The position numbers and the translations under genes were made by a program. Of a stretch of 64,000 nucleotides of DNA, positions 14,011 through 63,055 are shown one piece after another. The notes beneath the pieces are model-generated. The model saw only the letters and a program-made list of their open reading frames with translations, made no database searches and had not been told where the DNA came from. Within the stretch, counting starts at the first letter, position 1. Every line of letters begins with the position of its first letter. This stretch comes from Enterobacter sp. Lineage in GTDB: Bacteria; Pseudomonadota; Gammaproteobacteria; Enterobacterales; Enterobacteriaceae. The stretch lies in contig JALCNW010000002.1 in assembly GCA_022649305.1 (NCBI GenBank), positions 84,932-148,931 of the forward strand. Direction: 5' to 3'.

Positions 14011-15336
14011 GTGAATAACGCTTTGCAACTTAAAACCGGCGGTGACCCGCGTACGCTGCCGGACTATGCCGCCTTACGCGATGAAATCGGCAAGCTGGCC
14101 CATCCGGCTCGCCCGGACGTCAACTGGCGGTATGCCGAGAAACTCTGCCTCTCACTGTTCGAACAAAACGGCGTAGAGCTTCAGACCGCGGCCTGGTACA
14201 CGCTTGCGCGTACACATCTTGCTGGGCTGTTTGGGCTGAACGAAGGGTTATCCATTCTGGAGGCGCTGATCAGCCATCAGTGGGGTGGGCTATGGCCGCA
14301 GGCGGTGCATGCCAGAATTGAGATCCTCAGCAGTCTGAGCCAGCGCATCCAGCAGATGATGCGTACGCTGTCGCTGAACTACAGCGATCTCAGCCAGCTT
14401 TATCAGGCCGAGCAGTTGCTGACGCGTCTTGAAGCGATATTTCAGCGGCTGGAGCTTAAACATCTGAGTCAGCTTGAGACGCTGCGAACTCTGATGCACA
14501 ACAGTGCTGTCCGGCTGGAAAACAGTGATAGTGAGTCGGATCGGAGTGCTGTCGTTTTGCCCGATATCTCGATCGCTGCAACAAATGAGCCAGCAGAGGC
14601 GGTGAAGTGGGTATACGTCGCGCAGCCTGAGTTCCAGCCCAACGTAGAGGTCATGTCGGTAATACCTTCCCCGACGAAACCGTGGAAACCTTTTGCGGCG
14701 GGAATGGCGGCTATGCTGGTGATAAGTGCCGCCACGGTGTGGGGCTGGAATACTTTTCATCAACCAGACCGGTTACAAACAGCGCTCGCTACTACGTTCG
14801 CGCCATTACCTGCCCGGCTTTCGTCCGCGCAACTGGAGGGGTTGCGTCAGCAAAACCTTCCGGCGCAAGCGGCTATCAAAAATACTCGACAGCAGCTCAC
14901 TCGCTTGAGCCAGTTGCCGCCGGACTGGTCCGTCGACTATAGCCGTCAACTGGTACAGCAGGCATTGATTTTATGGCCAGAGCAGGCAAAACCGCTGGCG
15001 CAGGAGTGGCAACAGCAGCGTAAAGGAGCCGCTTTGCCGATGGAAAGCCTCAACGGCTGGAATGAGGGGATGACAAAGCTCCAGCAGTTGAGCGACAAGC
15101 TGAACGGGCTGGATGAACAGAAGGGAAAATATATTACGGTCAGCGAACTGAAATCGGTGGTGTTCACAGCAATGCAGGCGTTTAACCGGACAGTACCGGC
15201 TGAAGAGCAACTGCGGACGCTGGCGCAAACCCCAGCCGGGCAGCCACTGCCTGCTGCGGCGCAATCGCAACTGGAAATGCACCTTAAGCAGCTAACGGCG
15301 CAGTATGGCGATCTGAAACACCGCGAAGTGAAGTAA
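14011..15336 (+). CDS. TssA/VasL-like protein (ImpA N-terminal domain plus TM)
   Basis: RTLPDYAALRDEIGKLAHPARPDVNWRYAEKLCLSLFEQNGVELQTAAWYTLAR ImpA_N-like; TM segment AAMLVISAATVWGW. Confidence 0.8.
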   Translation: MNNALQLKTGGDPRTLPDYAALRDEIGKLAHPARPDVNWRYAEKLCLSLFEQNGVELQTAAWYTLARTHLAGLFGLNEGLSILEALISHQWGGLWPQAVHARIEILSSLSQRIQQMMRTLSLNYSDLSQLYQAEQLLTRLEAIFQRLELKHLSQLETLRTLMHNSAVRLENSDSESDRSAVVLPDISIAATNEPAEAVKWVYVAQPEFQPNVEVMSVIPSPTKPWKPFAAGMAAMLVISAATVWGWNTFHQPDRLQTALATTFAPLPARLSSAQLEGLRQQNLPAQAAIKNTRQQLTRLSQLPPDWSVDYSRQLVQQALILWPEQAKPLAQEWQQQRKGAALPMESLNGWNEGMTKLQQLSDKLNGLDEQKGKYITVSELKSVVFTAMQAFNRTVPAEEQLRTLAQTPAGQPLPAAAQSQLEMHLKQLTAQYGDLKHREVK

Positions 15337-15368
15337 TGATGGGCGGTGACTGAGTGTACAAAAGCAAA

Positions 15369-15393
15369 AAACCAGCCCTAGGGCTGGTTTTTC
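15369..15393. terminator. Bidirectional terminator hairpin between T6SS remnant and tRNA fragment
   Basis: AAAACCAGCCC-TA-GGGCTGGTTTTT. Confidence 0.8.
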
Positions 15394-15400
15394 TAAATAG

Positions 15401-15449
15401 TGGTGCCCGGACTCGGAATCGAACCAAGGACACGGGGATTTTCAATCCC
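15401..15449 (-). other. tRNA-Phe 3'-end fragment / ICE attachment-site direct repeat
   Basis: Reverse complement reads GGGATTGAAAATCCCCGTGTCCTTGGTTCGATTCCGAGTCCGGGCACCA, i.e. anticodon GAA through CCA of bacterial tRNA-Phe; diverges at 15450, immediately before the ICE parA gene. Confidence 0.9.
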
Positions 15450-15508
15450 TGAGTCAAAGTTAATAGTTTGTAAACAGGCGTATTTGCATACTGTAAAGAG
15501 TGTGCAAA

Positions 15509-23915: not shown

Positions 23916-25925
23916 ATGCAACTCTTTCTGTGTGAAAAACCATCACAGGCAAAGGATATTGCCCGCGTGCTGGGTATCAGCAAGCGTGAGCAGGGATTTA
24001 TCAGCGGCGGTAACATCGTTGTGACCTGGGCGGTCGGCCATTTACTCGAAACTGCCAGCCCTGAAGCCTATGGTGAGCAGTATGGCAGGCCATGGCGTGC
24101 CGATGTCCTGCCTGTGCTGCCTGAGACCTGGGAAATGGTCGTCAAGGAGCAGACAAAATCGCAGTTCACTGTTATCAGTAAGCTGCTCAAAAAGGCCTCT
24201 GAGGTGGTCATCGCCACCGATGCCGACCGCGAGGGCGAGGTGATCGCGCGTGAGCTGCTGGAATACTGCCGCTACAGTGGCGCGGTACGCCGGCTCTGGT
24301 TGTCAGCCCTGGATGAGGCCAGTGTGAAGGAAGCACTGGGCAATATTCTTCCCGGAGAAAAAACAGCCCTGCTGTACGATGCCGGCAAGGGCCGGAGCCA
24401 GGCTGACTGGCTCATCGGTATGAACCTGACCCGCCTTTATACTCTCAAAGCCCGTGACTCAGGGGTGTCAGAAGTGCTGTCCGTCGGGCGGGTACAGACG
24501 CCGACGCTTGCCATGGTGGTTAACCGGGATAATGAAATTACGTCCTTCGTGCCAAAGCCCTGGTGGCAGGTACATGCGCTTATTGAAAAAGAGGGCGTCC
24601 GGTTCCGGGCTGGCTGGGTGCCCGTTGAGCAGTACTGTGATGAGGAAAAGCGTTGCATCAATCCTCAGGCTGCCCGGGCGGTGGGACAGCTGTGTCAGCA
24701 GCAGGGCAGGGCTGCGGTACTGGAGGTGACACAGAAGCGGGAGAAAACGGCGGCACCCCTCTGTTTTGACCTGGGCACCCTTCAGCAGGTCTGTTCCCGA
24801 AAATTCGGCATGGGCGCAAATGATGTGCTCGCCATTGCTCAGTCACTTTACGAAACCCACAAAGCGACCACCTACCCCCGTACAGACTGCGGTTTTCTGC
24901 CAACTTCCATGCAGCAGGAAATATCCGACGTGCTGGCGGCAGTGGCGAAATCCGATCCGGCTGTGGCCCCGGTACTGAATCAGCTGGACAGGCAGTTTGT
25001 CTCGCGTGTCTGGAATGACAAAAAAATCACCGCGCACCATGCCATCATTCCCACCCGACAGGCATTTGATTTGTCACGCCTCAGTGCCGATGAGCTGAAG
25101 GTCTACCAGCTGATTCGCCAGCATTATTTCGCCCAGTTCCTTCCGCTGCAGGAATCTGACGTGACGGAGGCCTCTTTCAATATCGGTGGACAGCTGTTCC
25201 GTACACGCGGGAAAGTCGGTGTGGTGACGGGCTGGAAGTCATTGTTCCTGGCTGAAAAAGATGACGATGAAGAGGACGTCGACGGTGACAGTATGGCGCT
25301 GCCGGCGCTGGCAAAAGGGGATATTTGCGCTGTCACCGGTTCTGAGGTTAAGGATATGAAAACCAGTCCGCCCAAACCGTTCACGGAGGGGACGCTGATT
25401 GCTGCCATGAAGAACGCGGCCAGTTTCGTCAGTGACCCGAAGCTGAAGAAAGTGCTGCGTGATAACGCCGGTCTGGGCACAGAGGCGACGCGTGCGGCTG
25501 TGCTTGAAACCCTCTTCAAACGACACTATCTGGAGAAAAAAGGGAAGCACATCCACTCAACGCAGATGGCCCGGGAGCTGATTGCGGCCCTGCCGGAAAC
25601 GCTGACGAGCCCGGGCATGACCGCATTATGGGAGCAGGCACTGGATGATATTTCGCAGGGGAAAATGTCGCTTGCGGTCTTTATGCAAAAGCAGCTGCAG
25701 TGGACCCGTCACCTTGTCGAAAAAGGCCGTCAGGACAGTGTGAAAATTACTGCTCCCGTCACGCCTCCCTGCCCGTTATGCAAAGGACCCACGCGTAAAC
25801 GTAAAGGTAAAAATGGTGATTTTTGGGGGTGCATACGCTATCCGGACTGTGAGGGAATTATCAGTACAGGTAAGAAGAAAGCAGCGAAGCGTAAAAAAAC
25901 ATCGGTTAAGGCTAAAACAGAATAA
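23916..25925 (+). CDS. topB: DNA topoisomerase III
   Basis: LFLCEKPSQAKDIARVLG; ATDADREGEVIARELL; SVGRVQTPTLAMVV; C-terminal Zn finger CPLCKGPTRKRKGKNGDFWGCIRYPDC. Confidence 0.96.
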   Translation: MQLFLCEKPSQAKDIARVLGISKREQGFISGGNIVVTWAVGHLLETASPEAYGEQYGRPWRADVLPVLPETWEMVVKEQTKSQFTVISKLLKKASEVVIATDADREGEVIARELLEYCRYSGAVRRLWLSALDEASVKEALGNILPGEKTALLYDAGKGRSQADWLIGMNLTRLYTLKARDSGVSEVLSVGRVQTPTLAMVVNRDNEITSFVPKPWWQVHALIEKEGVRFRAGWVPVEQYCDEEKRCINPQAARAVGQLCQQQGRAAVLEVTQKREKTAAPLCFDLGTLQQVCSRKFGMGANDVLAIAQSLYETHKATTYPRTDCGFLPTSMQQEISDVLAAVAKSDPAVAPVLNQLDRQFVSRVWNDKKITAHHAIIPTRQAFDLSRLSADELKVYQLIRQHYFAQFLPLQESDVTEASFNIGGQLFRTRGKVGVVTGWKSLFLAEKDDDEEDVDGDSMALPALAKGDICAVTGSEVKDMKTSPPKPFTEGTLIAAMKNAASFVSDPKLKKVLRDNAGLGTEATRAAVLETLFKRHYLEKKGKHIHSTQMARELIAALPETLTSPGMTALWEQALDDISQGKMSLAVFMQKQLQWTRHLVEKGRQDSVKITAPVTPPCPLCKGPTRKRKGKNGDFWGCIRYPDCEGIISTGKKKAAKRKKTSVKAKTE

Positions 25926-26177
25926 TCCGCGCAGTATTGAACTATTTCACTGTACAACCCCGGGCCGGGTTCTGCTATTGTTGCCAGGCTTTGATGCATA
26001 GGTGCCCCGCTGGCCACGGTGCTGTAAGGTAAACTTTAACGGGATTTACCCCCAGCAGGCCTGGCAGGAAGTTATTGCACACTAACTGACCTGTAAGACG
26101 CATGCACTCCGTGAAAACCGCGTCGGGATTATTCCCCGGAGACAGATGAGACGACCGCAGGTTAAGGCACTGACCCC

Positions 26178-26207
26178 AGGGCACCGGAAACGGTGCCCTT
26201 TTATTTT
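26178..26207 (+). terminator. Rho-independent terminator downstream of topB
   Basis: GGGCACCG-GAAA-CGGTGCCC then TTTTATTTTT. Confidence 0.88.
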
Positions 26208-26234
26208 TACGGATCACGTTTTCCATTTTGACCG

Positions 26235-26263
26235 TTGACATTCAGGGAGGACGGTTTAATTAT
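26235..26263 (+). promoter_or_regulatory. Sigma70-like promoter for structured element A
   Basis: TTGACA-N17-AATTAT; inverted repeat ACGGTTTA/TAAACCGT overlaps it. Confidence 0.65.
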
Positions 26264-26277
26264 AAAAGTGCTAAACC

Positions 26278-26441
26278 GTCGTTCATACGACCACCAATGA
26301 TTCAGTAGCCTGTGAGAATCGCCTTCGGGTGGCTACAGCGAAAGCTCCTGTAACCTGAAAGGGAGCAAACTTTGGTACATCTGCGCACCTTTGAAAGCAG
26401 ATATCGCCTGTACAAGCGCATTACGACGCGGCGATGAAGGT
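26278..26441 (+). ncRNA. Candidate structured RNA, copy A (upstream of DUF3577/ssb)
   Basis: Five stems shared with 61277-61513, including a CGCC-UUCG-GGUG hairpin; compensatory changes between copies. Confidence 0.7.
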
Positions 26442-26560
26442 TCCTTCAACATACCAGACTCTCAGGATTCAACCGATCCTGACCCCCGACGGGAAACCAC
26501 TCCCGTCAGGGCAGATGGTTTCTCCGTCGTACCTATTTTTACCTCCATGGAGAAAACATC

Positions 26561-27031
26561 ATGTCTGCAAACAATACTTCTGCATCTGCAAAATCTGAGT
26601 ACTTCAACCTGACTATTAAAGGCATCGGGTATCTCAGCAACATCCGCCAGGTTAACCATCAGAATGGCTTGTTCCTCAGCTGCGTAATCAATGCACTGAG
26701 CGGTCCGACTGACAATCCGGCCTACGTCCGTTTTGACATTTCTGTCGCAGGTAAAGAGGCTACCAGCCTTATCGCCCGCTGCCAGAAAGCCGTCGATGAA
26801 GACAAAAAAGTCCTGCTGGGCTTTAACCTGAGTAATCCGTCCACGGACATATTTACGCTGAACAAGGGCGAGCATGCCGGCGAACAGCGTGTCAGTCTGA
26901 AAGCCCGCCTGATAAAGGTGGACTGGATCAAAATAGGCCAGGACATGGTCTACAAGACTGAAAAATCTGACTCCGTGCCGCCGCAGAATGGCTCTGCCGC
27001 ACAACAAAACTACGCAGAAAACTCATTCTGA
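26561..27031 (+). CDS. DUF3577 family ICE protein
   Basis: EYFNLTIKGIGYLSNIRQV; position upstream of ssb. Confidence 0.82.
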   Translation: MSANNTSASAKSEYFNLTIKGIGYLSNIRQVNHQNGLFLSCVINALSGPTDNPAYVRFDISVAGKEATSLIARCQKAVDEDKKVLLGFNLSNPSTDIFTLNKGEHAGEQRVSLKARLIKVDWIKIGQDMVYKTEKSDSVPPQNGSAAQQNYAENSF

Positions 27032-27043
27032 TGCGCACCTGAC

Positions 27044-27075
27044 ACACCCCGTTCGCGGGGTGTTTCTTTATTCTT
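27044..27075 (+). terminator. Terminator-like hairpin
   Basis: ACACCCCG-TTCG-CGGGGTGT then TTCTTTATTCTTT. Confidence 0.75.
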
Positions 27076-27091
27076 TACAGGAGAAATGATT

Positions 27092-27628
27092 ATGTCCTCA
27101 CGCGGCGTTAACAAGGTGATTCTTGTCGGTAATCTCGGCCAGGATCCTGAAGTGCGTTATATTCCCAATGGCAGTGCAGTTGCCACCCTTTCTCTGGCCA
27201 CGTCTGAGAGCTGGCGTGATAAGCAGTCCGGTGAACAGAAAGAAGTGACCGAATGGCACCGGGTGGTTATTTTCGGCAAGCTGGCAGAAATTGCGGGTGA
27301 ATATCTGCGCAAAGGCTCCCAGGTTTACATCGAGGGCCAGCTGCGCACACGCAAATGGACCGATCAGTCTGGCCTGGAGAAATACATCACAGAGGTGGTG
27401 GTAAACATTGGTGGCACCATGCAGATGCTTGGCGGTCGCCAGTCCGGCAGCGGTCAGAATACGTCTTCCCGGAATGACTGGGGCCAGCCTCAGCAACCTT
27501 CCGGACCGACTCACAGTGGCCTGGCTTCCGGCAGCAGTGCCGGTGCGCCACCGATGGACTTCGATGACGATATACCGTTCATTGGATTCGGGTATGGAGT
27601 ACCAAAATCGGCAATCCATGCACTCTGA
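27092..27628 (+). CDS. ssb: Single-stranded DNA-binding protein
   Basis: [38 protein letters not shown]; acidic C-terminal region DFDDDIPF followed by an unusual extension [15 protein letters not shown]. Confidence 0.95.
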
Positions 27629-57968: not shown

Positions 57969-58484
57969 ATGCCAATTCCTTTAGAACAGACGATGTGTTG
58001 GGATAAAAGTTCGCAGAAAAATTCAGTAAACACACCGGTTTTGATGATGGCGGCTATCGCCAGACTTACAGGTAGCAATCCATCACTGGCATGCGTTCCG
58101 TTGTTTGGTGATGGGGTTTCATGTGGTTTCCCTTCTCCAGCACAGGATTATGTCGAAAAACGTCTTTCCCTCGATGACCTTTGCATCCGCTATCCGGAAA
58201 GTACCTATCTGGTGCGGGCAGAGGGGGATTCGATGCTTAATGCCGGGATTAAAGACGGTGATTTACTAATAGTGGAGTGTATTCGTGAGGCAAAGCACGG
58301 TGACATTGTCATTGCAGCCGTAGATGGGGAGTTTACCTGTAAGAGGCTTCAGCTATTGCCATCACCAGCTCTGGTCCCGGCTAATCCAGCTTATTCTTCA
58401 ATCCCCCTTACTGAGGATATAGAAACAGTGGTCTTTGGTGTGGTACGTCATCTCGTTCACTCCTTCAAATTCCGGGATGCCTGA
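57969..58484 (+). CDS. umuD: UmuD-type SOS mutagenesis protein
   Basis: CGF cleavage-like site; RAEGDSMLNAGI (Ser) and VDGEFTCKRL (Lys) catalytic dyad. Confidence 0.88.
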   Translation: MPIPLEQTMCWDKSSQKNSVNTPVLMMAAIARLTGSNPSLACVPLFGDGVSCGFPSPAQDYVEKRLSLDDLCIRYPESTYLVRAEGDSMLNAGIKDGDLLIVECIREAKHGDIVIAAVDGEFTCKRLQLLPSPALVPANPAYSSIPLTEDIETVVFGVVRHLVHSFKFRDA

Positions 58485-58486
58485 GC

Positions 58487-59758
58487 ATGTTTGCGCTGGT
58501 CGATGTGAATTCTTTTTATGCTTCATGCGAAACCGTTTTCAGGCCAGACCTCCGTGGCAAACCTGTGGTTGTACTATCCAATAATGATGGATGCATAATA
58601 GCCCGTTCAGCAGTTGCGAAGTCACTTGGGCTAAAAATGGGTGACCCTTGGTTCAAGGTTGGCCGCGAGGCGGAAAGAAGAGGCGTTGTTGCCTTTTCCA
58701 GTAATTACAGCCTTTATGCTGACATGTCTGACAGAGTGATGACTATTTTGCAGATGTTAGCTCCCCGCGTAGAAATATACAGTATTGATGAAGCCTTTTG
58801 CGATCTTACGGGAGTAAGTGGTCTTTTATCACTTGAGGTTTTTGGCCATCAGATACGTGAGCAGATCAGGCGCAGGACACACCTTACCGTGGGGGTGGGG
58901 ATAGGCCCAACGAAAACTCTGGCTAAACTGGCCCAATATGCAAGTAAACGCTGGCCAGCTACGCGAGGAGTAGTTGACCTGAGCAATATAGGGCGACAGC
59001 GAAAGTTAATGGCCTTGGTGCCAGTCGAAGAGGTCTGGGGTATTGGCCGTCGGCTCGGTAAAAAATTGCAGTTGATGGGGATTAACAATGCACTCCAGCT
59101 GTCTGAGCTGTCTCCTTCATTTATTCGTAAGCAATTTTCAGTGGTTGTTGAACGAACAGTAAGAGAACTCAACGGCACGCCCTGCCTGGGCCTTGAAGAG
59201 TTTACAGCTCCAAAGGAGCAAATCATATGCTCCCGCTCCTTTGGAGAAAAACCTACAGATGAATTCAGCATCCATCAGGCTGTCTGCGCTCATGCCGAAC
59301 GTGCAGCAGAAAAGTTACGCGCAGAGCACCAGTTTTGTAAACGAGTAGCGGTATTCATCAGTACCAGTCCCTTTGAAGAGAATGAATCGTTCTATAAAAA
59401 TCAGGCTGTAACGGAGCTTGCTGTTCCGGCCCGTGATTCCCGGGATATCATCAAGGCGGCTGTAAGAGCTCTTGAAACAATATTCATCCCGGGGCATCGT
59501 TATCAACGCGCAGGTGTAATTCTCACCGATTTTCGCAGCGCGGCAGTATCACAACTTACCCTGTTCGATGACCTTCAGCCTCATCGTAATAGCGATGAAT
59601 TAATGACACTCATAGACAGCATTAACAGTTCTGGTAAGGGTTCAGTCTGGTTTGCAGGGCAGGGCATTAAAAGTGATGCCACAGGCTGGAAGATGCGAAG
59701 AGAAAGACTTTCGCCCGCTTTTACAACCAGATTGGATGATATTGTCAGAGTAAGGTAA
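58487..59758 (+). CDS. umuC: UmuC-type Y-family DNA polymerase V subunit
   Basis: FALVDVNSFYASCETVFRPDLRGKPVVVLSNNDGCIIARS; YSIDEAFCDLTG. Confidence 0.95.
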   Translation: MFALVDVNSFYASCETVFRPDLRGKPVVVLSNNDGCIIARSAVAKSLGLKMGDPWFKVGREAERRGVVAFSSNYSLYADMSDRVMTILQMLAPRVEIYSIDEAFCDLTGVSGLLSLEVFGHQIREQIRRRTHLTVGVGIGPTKTLAKLAQYASKRWPATRGVVDLSNIGRQRKLMALVPVEEVWGIGRRLGKKLQLMGINNALQLSELSPSFIRKQFSVVVERTVRELNGTPCLGLEEFTAPKEQIICSRSFGEKPTDEFSIHQAVCAHAERAAEKLRAEHQFCKRVAVFISTSPFEENESFYKNQAVTELAVPARDSRDIIKAAVRALETIFIPGHRYQRAGVILTDFRSAAVSQLTLFDDLQPHRNSDELMTLIDSINSSGKGSVWFAGQGIKSDATGWKMRRERLSPAFTTRLDDIVRVR

Positions 59759-61233: not shown

Positions 61234-61262
61234 TTGACGTCGTATTTCCCTGTTGGTACTAT
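61234..61262 (+). promoter_or_regulatory. Sigma70-like promoter for structured element B
   Basis: TTGACG-N17-TACTAT; -10 end to first stem is 15 nt, as in copy A. Confidence 0.6.
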
Positions 61263-61276
61263 CAAACTGTTGTACT

Positions 61277-61513
61277 GTCGCACTGGCGACCACCAATGCT
61301 CTTGTAGCCTGTGATGAGCGCCTTCGGGTGGCTACAGTCGCACTTAAGCTGCGACCACCAATGTTCCGGCAGTCTGTGAGGAGCGCCTTCGGGTGACTGC
61401 ACAATAAAACTCTCTAAGCCTGAAAGGGAGTACATGAAAAATGTGGCAAATCTGCTCACCTTTGAAAGCAGATATCGTCTATGAAAGCGCACTATGACGC
61501 GGCGATGAAGGTT
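61277..61513 (+). ncRNA. Candidate structured RNA, copy B (5' module duplicated)
   Basis: Two tandem [GTCGY..RCGAC]-CACCAATG-[GYAGY..CGCCTTCGGGTG..RCTRC] modules at 61277-61335 and 61337-61400, then the same three downstream stems as copy A. Confidence 0.7.
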
Positions 61514-61683: not shown

Positions 61684-61738
61684 GCTGCGCGGCGTCACTT
61701 GTGAAGTGGCGAAGACACTACCAAGTGACGCGCGCAGC
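61684..61738. repeat. Long inverted repeat (16-bp stem with one bulge)
   Basis: GCTGCGCGgCGTCACTT ... AAGTGACGCGCGCAGC. Confidence 0.85.
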
Positions 61739-62155
61739 GCATAACGTCTCAACCCACGTAAGACGTGGTTTTCAACGTTTTACTACCATCTGACCAACAT
61801 GTAGCCCGTGTCAGTGCGGTTTTAAAATCACTTTCACATCAACGTAAGCACGACGGGAGGCCGTCTGAACGTTCAACTATCAGTAAGGAGGAAATCGACT
61901 CGGTATCGATGGCGACACTACGAGCAGTAGTGTTGGAGGCAGCTTGACGTAAGTCAGCTCTGCATAAGCAGCAAACAGATCAGAGATCTGGGGTGCCTCG
62001 CAAGAACTCAACAATTCGCCGCCCCGATGCACAGATACCAGTCGAGACGCAGGAAGCGCAACAGCAACCGTGTCGTCGGGGAATGAATTGCTGGTCTACA
62101 GATCCGTCTGCTTCTTTACAAGCAGAGGGACGTGTATGCCTTTGGAGAGAGTGAA

Positions 62156-63055
62156 ATGTCCAGATTCAGTAAACAGCTGTGCAAACAACTCGTCACGCTT
62201 GCCCGTCAGGGGCGGGGAAGTTATAAAACGGTGGCTGACCGTTCAAGAATCGCAGAACGTTTTTCTGAACGACTGTCTGAACTGAATATTCAGATCAGGG
62301 ACGTAAAACATATCAAAACTTCCCATATTGAAAAGTATATTGAGAGCAGGAAGGCAGATAGTTTATCTCTCAGGACGTTACAGAATGAGATGTCTGCTAT
62401 CCGTTCTGTTTTATTATCAGCAGGAAGAAATAAACTGGCCGATCCCAGTCACATTAACCTGAGTAATCAGGCGCTCGGGATTTCTGGTGCTAACCGGGAT
62501 GGAACTAAACTTCCCATTACAGACGAAAAACTTAATGCTGTGGTCAGTTTTGCCCAAAGAAAAGACGAGGGCGTTGCTCTTGCTGTGCAACTTTCCCGAT
62601 ATCTTGGATTGAGAACAGAAGAAACCGTTCAGTCTGCAAAGTCTTTAAAGACATGGAGGCAGGCACTGATTAATAATCATGAGCGTGTCCGTGTTGTTTT
62701 CGGGACTAAAGGCGGACGTCCAAGGGAAACGACAGTTTTTAATCGCGAAAAAGTTTTATCAATTCTTGACAAGGCAATTAGTTATGTCAGTGAACATAAC
62801 GGAAAACTGATTGATAAACCCTCTCTGCATACCGCTATTGATCGCTACCGTAATATTGTAAGAGAGGCCGGAATGAATGGTAAAAATGCGCCGCACAGTT
62901 TACGTTACGCTTACTCCCGCGATGCTGTAAATCACCATATTAAAAATGGAATGAGTCGCGATGAATCCGAGGCATTAGTTTCAATGGACCTGGGCCATGG
63001 AGATGGTCGGGGGCGTTATATTAAACAAGTTTATTTTCGTAAGGAAACAGAATAG
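62156..63055 (+). CDS. Tyrosine recombinase / integrase-domain protein
   Basis: Catalytic-like RTEE, HSLRYAYSR, LGHGDGRGRYIKQVY. Confidence 0.88.
   Translation: MSRFSKQLCKQLVTLARQGRGSYKTVADRSRIAERFSERLSELNIQIRDVKHIKTSHIEKYIESRKADSLSLRTLQNEMSAIRSVLLSAGRNKLADPSHINLSNQALGISGANRDGTKLPITDEKLNAVVSFAQRKDEGVALAVQLSRYLGLRTEETVQSAKSLKTWRQALINNHERVRVVFGTKGGRPRETTVFNREKVLSILDKAISYVSEHNGKLIDKPSLHTAIDRYRNIVREAGMNGKNAPHSLRYAYSRDAVNHHIKNGMSRDESEALVSMDLGHGDGRGRYIKQVYFRKETE

Follow-up and report, generated by a model that had tools for sequence, protein, structure and literature searches.

A STAXI pseudoknot RNA as a probable leader, and a repeated three-way RNA switch before operon genes of SPI-7-type ICEs

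A 64,000-nucleotide (nt) stretch of DNA from Enterobacter sp. (contig JALCNW010000002.1; hereafter referred to as the window) contains most of an SPI-7-type ICE. Here we report that a structured element upstream of the DUF3577 and ssb genes of this ICE (copy A) is a member of the known RNA family STAXI (RF01728), and that it is followed by a three-way RNA switch, which is repeated before ICE operon genes and appears to be undescribed. The STAXI element itself was already known, and the new part is the leader system that surrounds it, with the three-way switch. Judging from the sequence, we give an even chance to the reading that copy A forms the 5′ end of the DUF3577–ssb transcript and serves as its cis leader, probably as an antiterminator of the put and canT kind. 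STAXI, an RNA family that has had a name but no assigned function since 2010, now has a specific and simply testable model. If the model is true, widespread Gram-negative ICEs would use an RNA antiterminator for their early genes (ssb, antirestriction and replication genes), a role in which only the host RfaH has been known so far (PMC8955417). The switch would keep its apparent novelty even without antitermination.

In the window, the ICE extends from the ParA gene and further encodes DnaB, an AcaB-family regulator, topB, DUF3577, ssb, TraD-/TraG-like proteins and an integrase. The 72-kb plasmid NZ_CP056253 is a close relative of this ICE. The start of the ICE adjoins a type VI secretion cluster (14011–15500), in which a VasL/ImpA-like gene ends at 15336, with ParA starting at 15500. 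A UmuD/UmuC-like pair (Peptidase S24 and IMS) at 57969–59758 is borne by the ICE, upstream of the second STAXI copy (copy B). An Rfam scan of the window returned three matches: STAXI at 26277–26421 and 61276–61453, and EFASI at 61895–62044. The ICE start and the region of copy A contain the following features.

From 15500: ParA, an ICE gene
26178–26209, + strand: intrinsic terminator that follows topB and precedes the STAXI promoter (stem 26178–26199)
26235–26263, + strand: sigma-70 promoter TTGACA-N17-AATTAT, the −10 ending 14 nt before the 5′ hairpin
26278–26291, + strand: 5′ hairpin GTCGT-tcat-ACGAC, read in the sequence
From 26292: linker CACCAATG, read in the sequence
26299–26336, + strand: pseudoknot 1 (a GATTC/GAATC, b GTAGCC/GGCTAC, h GCC-UUCG-GGT), with 11 of 11 a and b pairs covarying
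26344–26378, + strand: pseudoknot 2 with a degenerate h (a GCTCC/GGGAGC, b GTAaC/GGTAC), assigned from the sequence, topology as in homologues
26379–26441, + strand: terminal pseudoknot (a ATCTGC/GCAGAT, b ACCTT/AAGGT, h ATCGCC/GGCGAT)
26462–26482, + strand: linker hairpin TCAGGAT/ATCCTGA, kept in homologues as a hairpin of differing sequence (an observation without statistics)
26561–27031, + strand: DUF3577 (PF12101; STY4534-family ICE replication protein)
27044–27063, + strand: intrinsic terminator between DUF3577 and ssb
27086–27628, + strand: ssb

Copies A and B match RF01728 with 79.8 bits (E = 4e-15) and 102.7 bits (E = 7e-21), respectively, above the gathering score of 40.5. The preliminary description of the element had implied that it was novel, while proposing a comparison with Rfam and naming an existing family that covers it as grounds for refutation; because RF01728 covers both copies, the implied novelty is refuted. 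All the helices listed there for copy A are present at the positions given, as read directly in the sequence: the UUCG-looped GTAGC(C)...GCTAC stem (26305–26336), GCTCCT/GGGAGC (26344–26366), ATCTGC/GCAGAT (26379–26402) and ATCGCC/GGCGAT (26403–26435). Copy B, from 61276 onward, and its compensatory changes relative to copy A are likewise present.

Downstream of the 5′ hairpin, which was found in 102 of 106 STAXI elements, copy A contains three crossing pseudoknots of one topology (a-b-a′-h-h′-b′), with strands a and b coming first, then a short loop ahead of a′, and the small hairpin h between a′ and b′. The comparison of units strongly supports the assignment of each STAXI repeat as an H-type pseudoknot, which had been overlooked. 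Helix a of pseudoknot 1 pairs 26299–26303 with 26316–26320, and helix b of the terminal pseudoknot pairs 26387–26391 with 26437–26441, so that the 3′ part of the latter lies outside the Rfam match, which stops at 26421. A plain MFE fold of copy A alone was not significant (RNA z = −0.63, DNA z = −1.52), because such a fold does not model pseudoknots.

A covariance model of the single unit gave 193 unit matches at 85 loci. Among 108 distinct units, 97.4% of the pair cells form standard pairs (32–66% in slid controls), and 318 cells are double-changed, compared with 82 in shuffles (0/500). The covariation among homologues that had been proposed as a check is thus significant. Double changes occur in 12 of the 14 pairs, and both-side changes in every pair of the pseudoknot helix (five) and of helix b (six). 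The terminal pseudoknot is present in 71 nonredundant elements, in which the b strands vary with compensation (ACCTT/AAGGT, TTCTT/AAGAA and GCCTT/AAGGC); since its helices were located by a pairing search, the evidence for it is the variety of these pairs.

Helices a and b contain 72 G·U cells and 5 A·C cells, which identifies the + strand as the folding strand, with wobble pairs well tolerated. In 76 of 92 units, the basal pair of helix h is G·U, and in 74 of 92 its loop is C(UUCG)G. UUCG, other UNCG and GNRA tetraloops stabilize RNA. The promoter noted previously ahead of the first stem, after the topB-side terminator, is present in the sequence, as is the terminator, and the promoter position is conserved: of 88 nonredundant STAXI elements, 60 (about 10 expected) match TTGACA in five or more of its six bases between −52 and −36 relative to the hairpin, tightly clustered, and the −10 of these elements usually ends 12–17 nt upstream of the hairpin. 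STAXI therefore lies close to a predicted transcript start, which for copy A would be at about 26270. The strand-specific folding and the fixed-distance sigma-70 promoter argue that STAXI forms the 5′ end of a transcript and is not a single-stranded DNA (ssDNA) promoter. Strand-specific RNA-seq in Pectobacterium detected STAXI transcripts 3′ of topB (PMC4710047). No terminator lies directly after copy A, whose leader reaches the DUF3577 start codon at 26561, and no consensus promoter was found between DUF3577 and ssb. Around the −10 of copy A is a perfect 9-bp inverted repeat, GACGGTTTA/TAAACCGTC (26250–26258/26272–26280), which is not family-wide and is possibly an operator.

An analysis of STAXI neighbours revealed three positions, referred to as contexts A (topB–STAXI–DUF3577–ssb), B (STAXI–inverted repeat–EFASI–integrase) and C (integrase–STAXI–small genes mostly without a Pfam family, with ArdC further on). 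The context-C genes c1, c5, c10, c11 and c30 matched no family in a Pfam search. In all three contexts, the recognized ICE genes downstream of STAXI are co-directional, and, in the genomes listed, STAXI copies that neighbour each other on a contig are on the same strand. Among 296 genomes sampled across the order, STAXI was found only in the family to which the window belongs, and neither STAXI nor EFASI was found in phages. A third (context C) copy with its operon was sought in the assembly of the window and is absent; the contig end is the window end. Context B is represented in the window by the following features.

61234–61262, + strand: copy B promoter TTGACG-N17-TACTAT
61276–61453, + strand: STAXI copy B, with pseudoknot units at 61291–61335 and 61356–61400, then more
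61692–61731, + strand: conserved inverted repeat GCGTCACTT...AAGTGACGC between STAXI and EFASI
61895–62044, + strand: EFASI RNA (RF02957)
62132–63055, + strand: integrase (PF12835/PF12834), downstream of copy B and EFASI

No terminator directly follows copy B. An 850-bp cassette composed of STAXI, the invariant inverted repeat and EFASI, with no ORF annotated in it, is kept on ColE1-type and rolling-circle-like plasmids of 3–8 kb. The inverted repeat, with a spacing of N17..22, also lies about 100 nt upstream of most STAXI-less EFASI copies, its outer arms identical and its inner stem variable; it occurs at 61692–61731 and in loci L033–L039, L102, L103, L105 and L106–L135, and with EFASI it looks like a core module. 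The cassettes in L033–L038, L102 and L103 are on plasmids of 3.1–8.4 kb without annotated mobilisation genes, and the genes adjoining them are on the opposite strand. An oriT-mimic or priming role of the small-plasmid cassettes was considered and set aside. A 25.5-kb Pantoea plasmid record (L039) repeats an 8.5-kb unit bearing STAXI, EFASI and RNAI three times in near-identical form, which reflects a plasmid multimer or an assembly effect.

The interval from STAXI to the start codon holds a switch module that is common to contexts A and C and is arranged at DUF3577 as follows.

26484–26563, + strand: three-way switch, in which pairings 1:2, 1:3 and 3:4 compete
26485–26499: segment 1, CCCGACGGGAAACCA
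26500–26511: segment 2, CTCCCGTCAGGG
26512–26529: segment 3, CAGATGGTTTCTCCGTCG
26545–26563: segment 4, CCATGGAGAAAACATCATG, containing the Shine–Dalgarno sequence and ATG

The three pairings are mutually exclusive and would form an anti-terminator (1:2), a terminator/anti-sequestor (1:3) and a Shine–Dalgarno sequestor (3:4). In a swap test, segments of one locus were paired with those of another, within the same context only, using 32 loci of less than 80% identity whose start codons were picked without regard to pairing. Native pairing was stronger than swapped pairing for 1:2 (z = −5.5), 1:3 (z = −9.7) and 3:4 (z = −8.1; 0/5000 for each), and the control pairings 2:3, 2:4 and 1:4 gave no signal in the same test. 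An earlier test, for which start codons were chosen by pairing strength and 14 loci were dropped by hand, had given the same result as this pairing-blind repeat. The switch thus has the mutually exclusive, covarying helices of an attenuator/sequestor, and it has no match in Rfam 15. A U-run often comes after the 1:3 stem in context C, where strong terminators are present in 13 of 31 leaders (0.25 expected); in context A, a terminator occurs at the switch in 3 of 23 loci. The copy A switch lacks a U-tail, and at DUF3577 it would therefore act on translation. The conserved promoter, the strand-specific G·U pairs and the conserved switch at the DUF3577 start codon support the suggestion, made in the preliminary description, of a cis leader of DUF3577 and ssb; of that interpretation as a whole, the structured RNA is likewise supported, the implied novelty is refuted and a Frpo-like ssDNA promoter is not supported.

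We scanned for switches with fixed thresholds, which were chosen after examples had been seen and were identical for the controls; the scanned regions of contexts B and C overlap where both copies are close together. Downstream of STAXI in the sense direction, there were 78 switches per 99.6 kb in context C (59 with a U-tail), 31 in 96 kb in context B and 20 in 75 kb in context A, compared with 0–3 in each of the antisense and upstream controls. Terminators with a co-directional gene within 90 nt numbered 47 in context C, as opposed to 0, 1 and 0 in the controls. In the 72-kb plasmid-form ICE, convincing switches precede five context-C operon genes and DUF3577 and occur nowhere else, so that all of them lie within its two STAXI-headed operons; two further matches look like chance. 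No switch was seen before the context-B integrase.

The same switch is present in DUF3577 leaders of other Gammaproteobacteria in which neither the STAXI unit model nor Rfam detected STAXI, and STAXI is thus not required for the switch. Several of these leaders have one pseudoknot of STAXI topology about 110–150 nt upstream of the start codon, with a UUCG, UCCG, GAAA or GCAA loop. A generic pseudoknot descriptor gave clear matches in L143, L145, L150, L157 and L162, weak ones in L156 and L158, and none in L144, L152, L153, L155 and L160, among which L152 and L155 are pseudoknot-like by eye and fail the descriptor rules. In one distant ICE (L141), radC RNA (RF01754) lies directly upstream of DUF3577 (1994–2142). 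Its helices can be read in a-b-a′-h-b′ order, like the STAXI units. The leaders with pseudoknots may form one common class. In the window, RF01754 has no match in 25900–27100 at E up to 0.1.

Under the antiterminator model, pairing of segments 1 and 2 would free segment 3 to sequester the Shine–Dalgarno sequence in segment 4, turning expression off, and pairing of segments 1 and 3 would free segment 4 and, with a U-tail, form an intrinsic terminator, again turning expression off. As both folds of a U-tailed switch would be off, expression would need the polymerase to read through the 1:3 hairpin, which, once passed, would leave the Shine–Dalgarno sequence open. The nascent STAXI RNA would make RNA polymerase pass intrinsic terminators, as do the HK022 put and Tn916 canT RNAs, and the early genes (ssb, DUF3577, ArdC and others) would be silent unless transcription began at the STAXI promoter. 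Read-through by STAXI would be the simplest mechanism, given that both U-tailed folds are off and that switches precede successive genes of one STAXI-headed operon. Intra-operon intrinsic terminators are regarded as a sign of processive antitermination (PMC8955417). Such terminators and an RNA near the predicted transcript start, both expected of a processive antiterminator, were found, and we infer that STAXI suppresses termination and acts in cis on its own transcript. The argument for antitermination rests on the terminator before ssb (27044–27063) and on context-C operons outside the window. Several findings count against the cis-leader and antiterminator reading: the switch also occurs in STAXI-less ICEs, although several of their leaders have a single pseudoknot of STAXI topology; the copy A switch lacks a U-tail; the ORF-less STAXI–EFASI plasmid cassettes have no downstream gene to regulate; and no switch was seen ahead of the integrase in context B. 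More generally, we tentatively suggest that STAXI and the single pseudoknots of STAXI-less leaders may be the RNA part of processive antitermination in Gram-negative conjugative elements, with 'double-locked' switches, both folds of which would be off unless the polymerase were already terminator-resistant.

The main rival is a trans-acting factor at each switch. An ICE protein (such as DUF3577 or SSB) or a small RNA (such as EFASI) would bind STAXI and/or the switches and choose between 1:2 with 3:4 and 1:3, STAXI being a docking or sensing domain instead of an antiterminator. This explanation, which we consider possible but do not favour, is consistent with the three-way switch as an ordinary attenuator/sequestor design with covariation, with its presence without STAXI, with the action of the context-A switch on the Shine–Dalgarno sequence and not on termination, and with the closeness of EFASI to STAXI in many elements. 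However, no protein-binding motif common to all switches was found beyond the pairing segments, and each operon has a single STAXI but several switches, an arrangement more in keeping with a head element than with a local sensor.

A stand-alone trans-acting sRNA, placed upstream of ssb incidentally, seems unlikely: although Rfam classes STAXI as 'Gene; sRNA', ORF-less STAXI–EFASI cassettes are kept on 3–8 kb plasmids, and amplification of vesicle RNA yielded STAXI and EFASI signals (PMC12370729), neither copy A nor copy B is followed right away by a terminator, and through the conserved switch the transcript is linked to the gene that follows. Very improbable is an ssDNA element that folds in the transferred strand as a Frpo-like promoter, as the preliminary description had alternatively proposed, or as a priming site on entry, for although ssb and antirestriction genes are typical leading-region genes, Frpo is known upstream of ssb (PMC11541004), STAXI copies of one element share a strand, small plasmids carry STAXI without obvious genes to control and the possibility was raised when STAXI was described, the canonical sigma-70 promoter lies outside the STAXI helices, its −10 in copy A falling in an unpaired loop when the sequence is folded as DNA, G·U pairs are well tolerated, the h loops are RNA-stabilizing UUCG and other UNCG/GNRA tetraloops, and the downstream switch works on mRNA.

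The preferred reading, a cis leader with probable antiterminator activity, can be compared with several known systems. The 2010 publication on STAXI presented a tandem pseudoknot of unassigned function, possibly ssDNA but more likely RNA given its UUCG loops (Weinberg et al. 2010, PMC2864571). Both copies resemble RF01728 in scoring above its gathering threshold, in their UUCG loops, in their repeated pseudoknots (at least two in the family, three in copy A) and in their neighbours, with topB, ssb and an integrase in the window representing the ssb, topoisomerase, antirestriction or integrase genes typical of STAXI. By contrast, the Rfam match stops at 26421, places the third copy A unit wrongly and leaves out the last part of the terminal pseudoknot (to 26441), as well as the promoter at its fixed distance upstream and the switch downstream. 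The radC RNA (RF01754) occupies an equivalent place, the DUF3577 leader, in L141, but is a separate family unmatched in the window. Frpo/ssi elements are similarly located upstream of ssb in conjugative elements, but Frpo has its −35 and −10 inside a DNA hairpin (PMC11541004), whereas the STAXI promoter is outside the hairpin. The conAn1/conAn2 system of pLS20 also combines a conjugative operon, many intrinsic terminators and an RNA component at the start, but it is Gram-positive and requires the ConAn1 protein; RfaH/ops has been named as the sole known antitermination system of Gram-negative conjugation operons (PMC8955417). Like HK022 put and Tn916 canT, STAXI is a structured RNA near the 5′ end of a mobile-element operon with intrinsic terminators (PMC9378689, PMC11658703). 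STAXI is a pseudoknot array, whereas put consists of two stem-loops, and, compared with put and canT, antitermination by STAXI is a proposal from sequence, and its downstream terminators double as Shine–Dalgarno switches.
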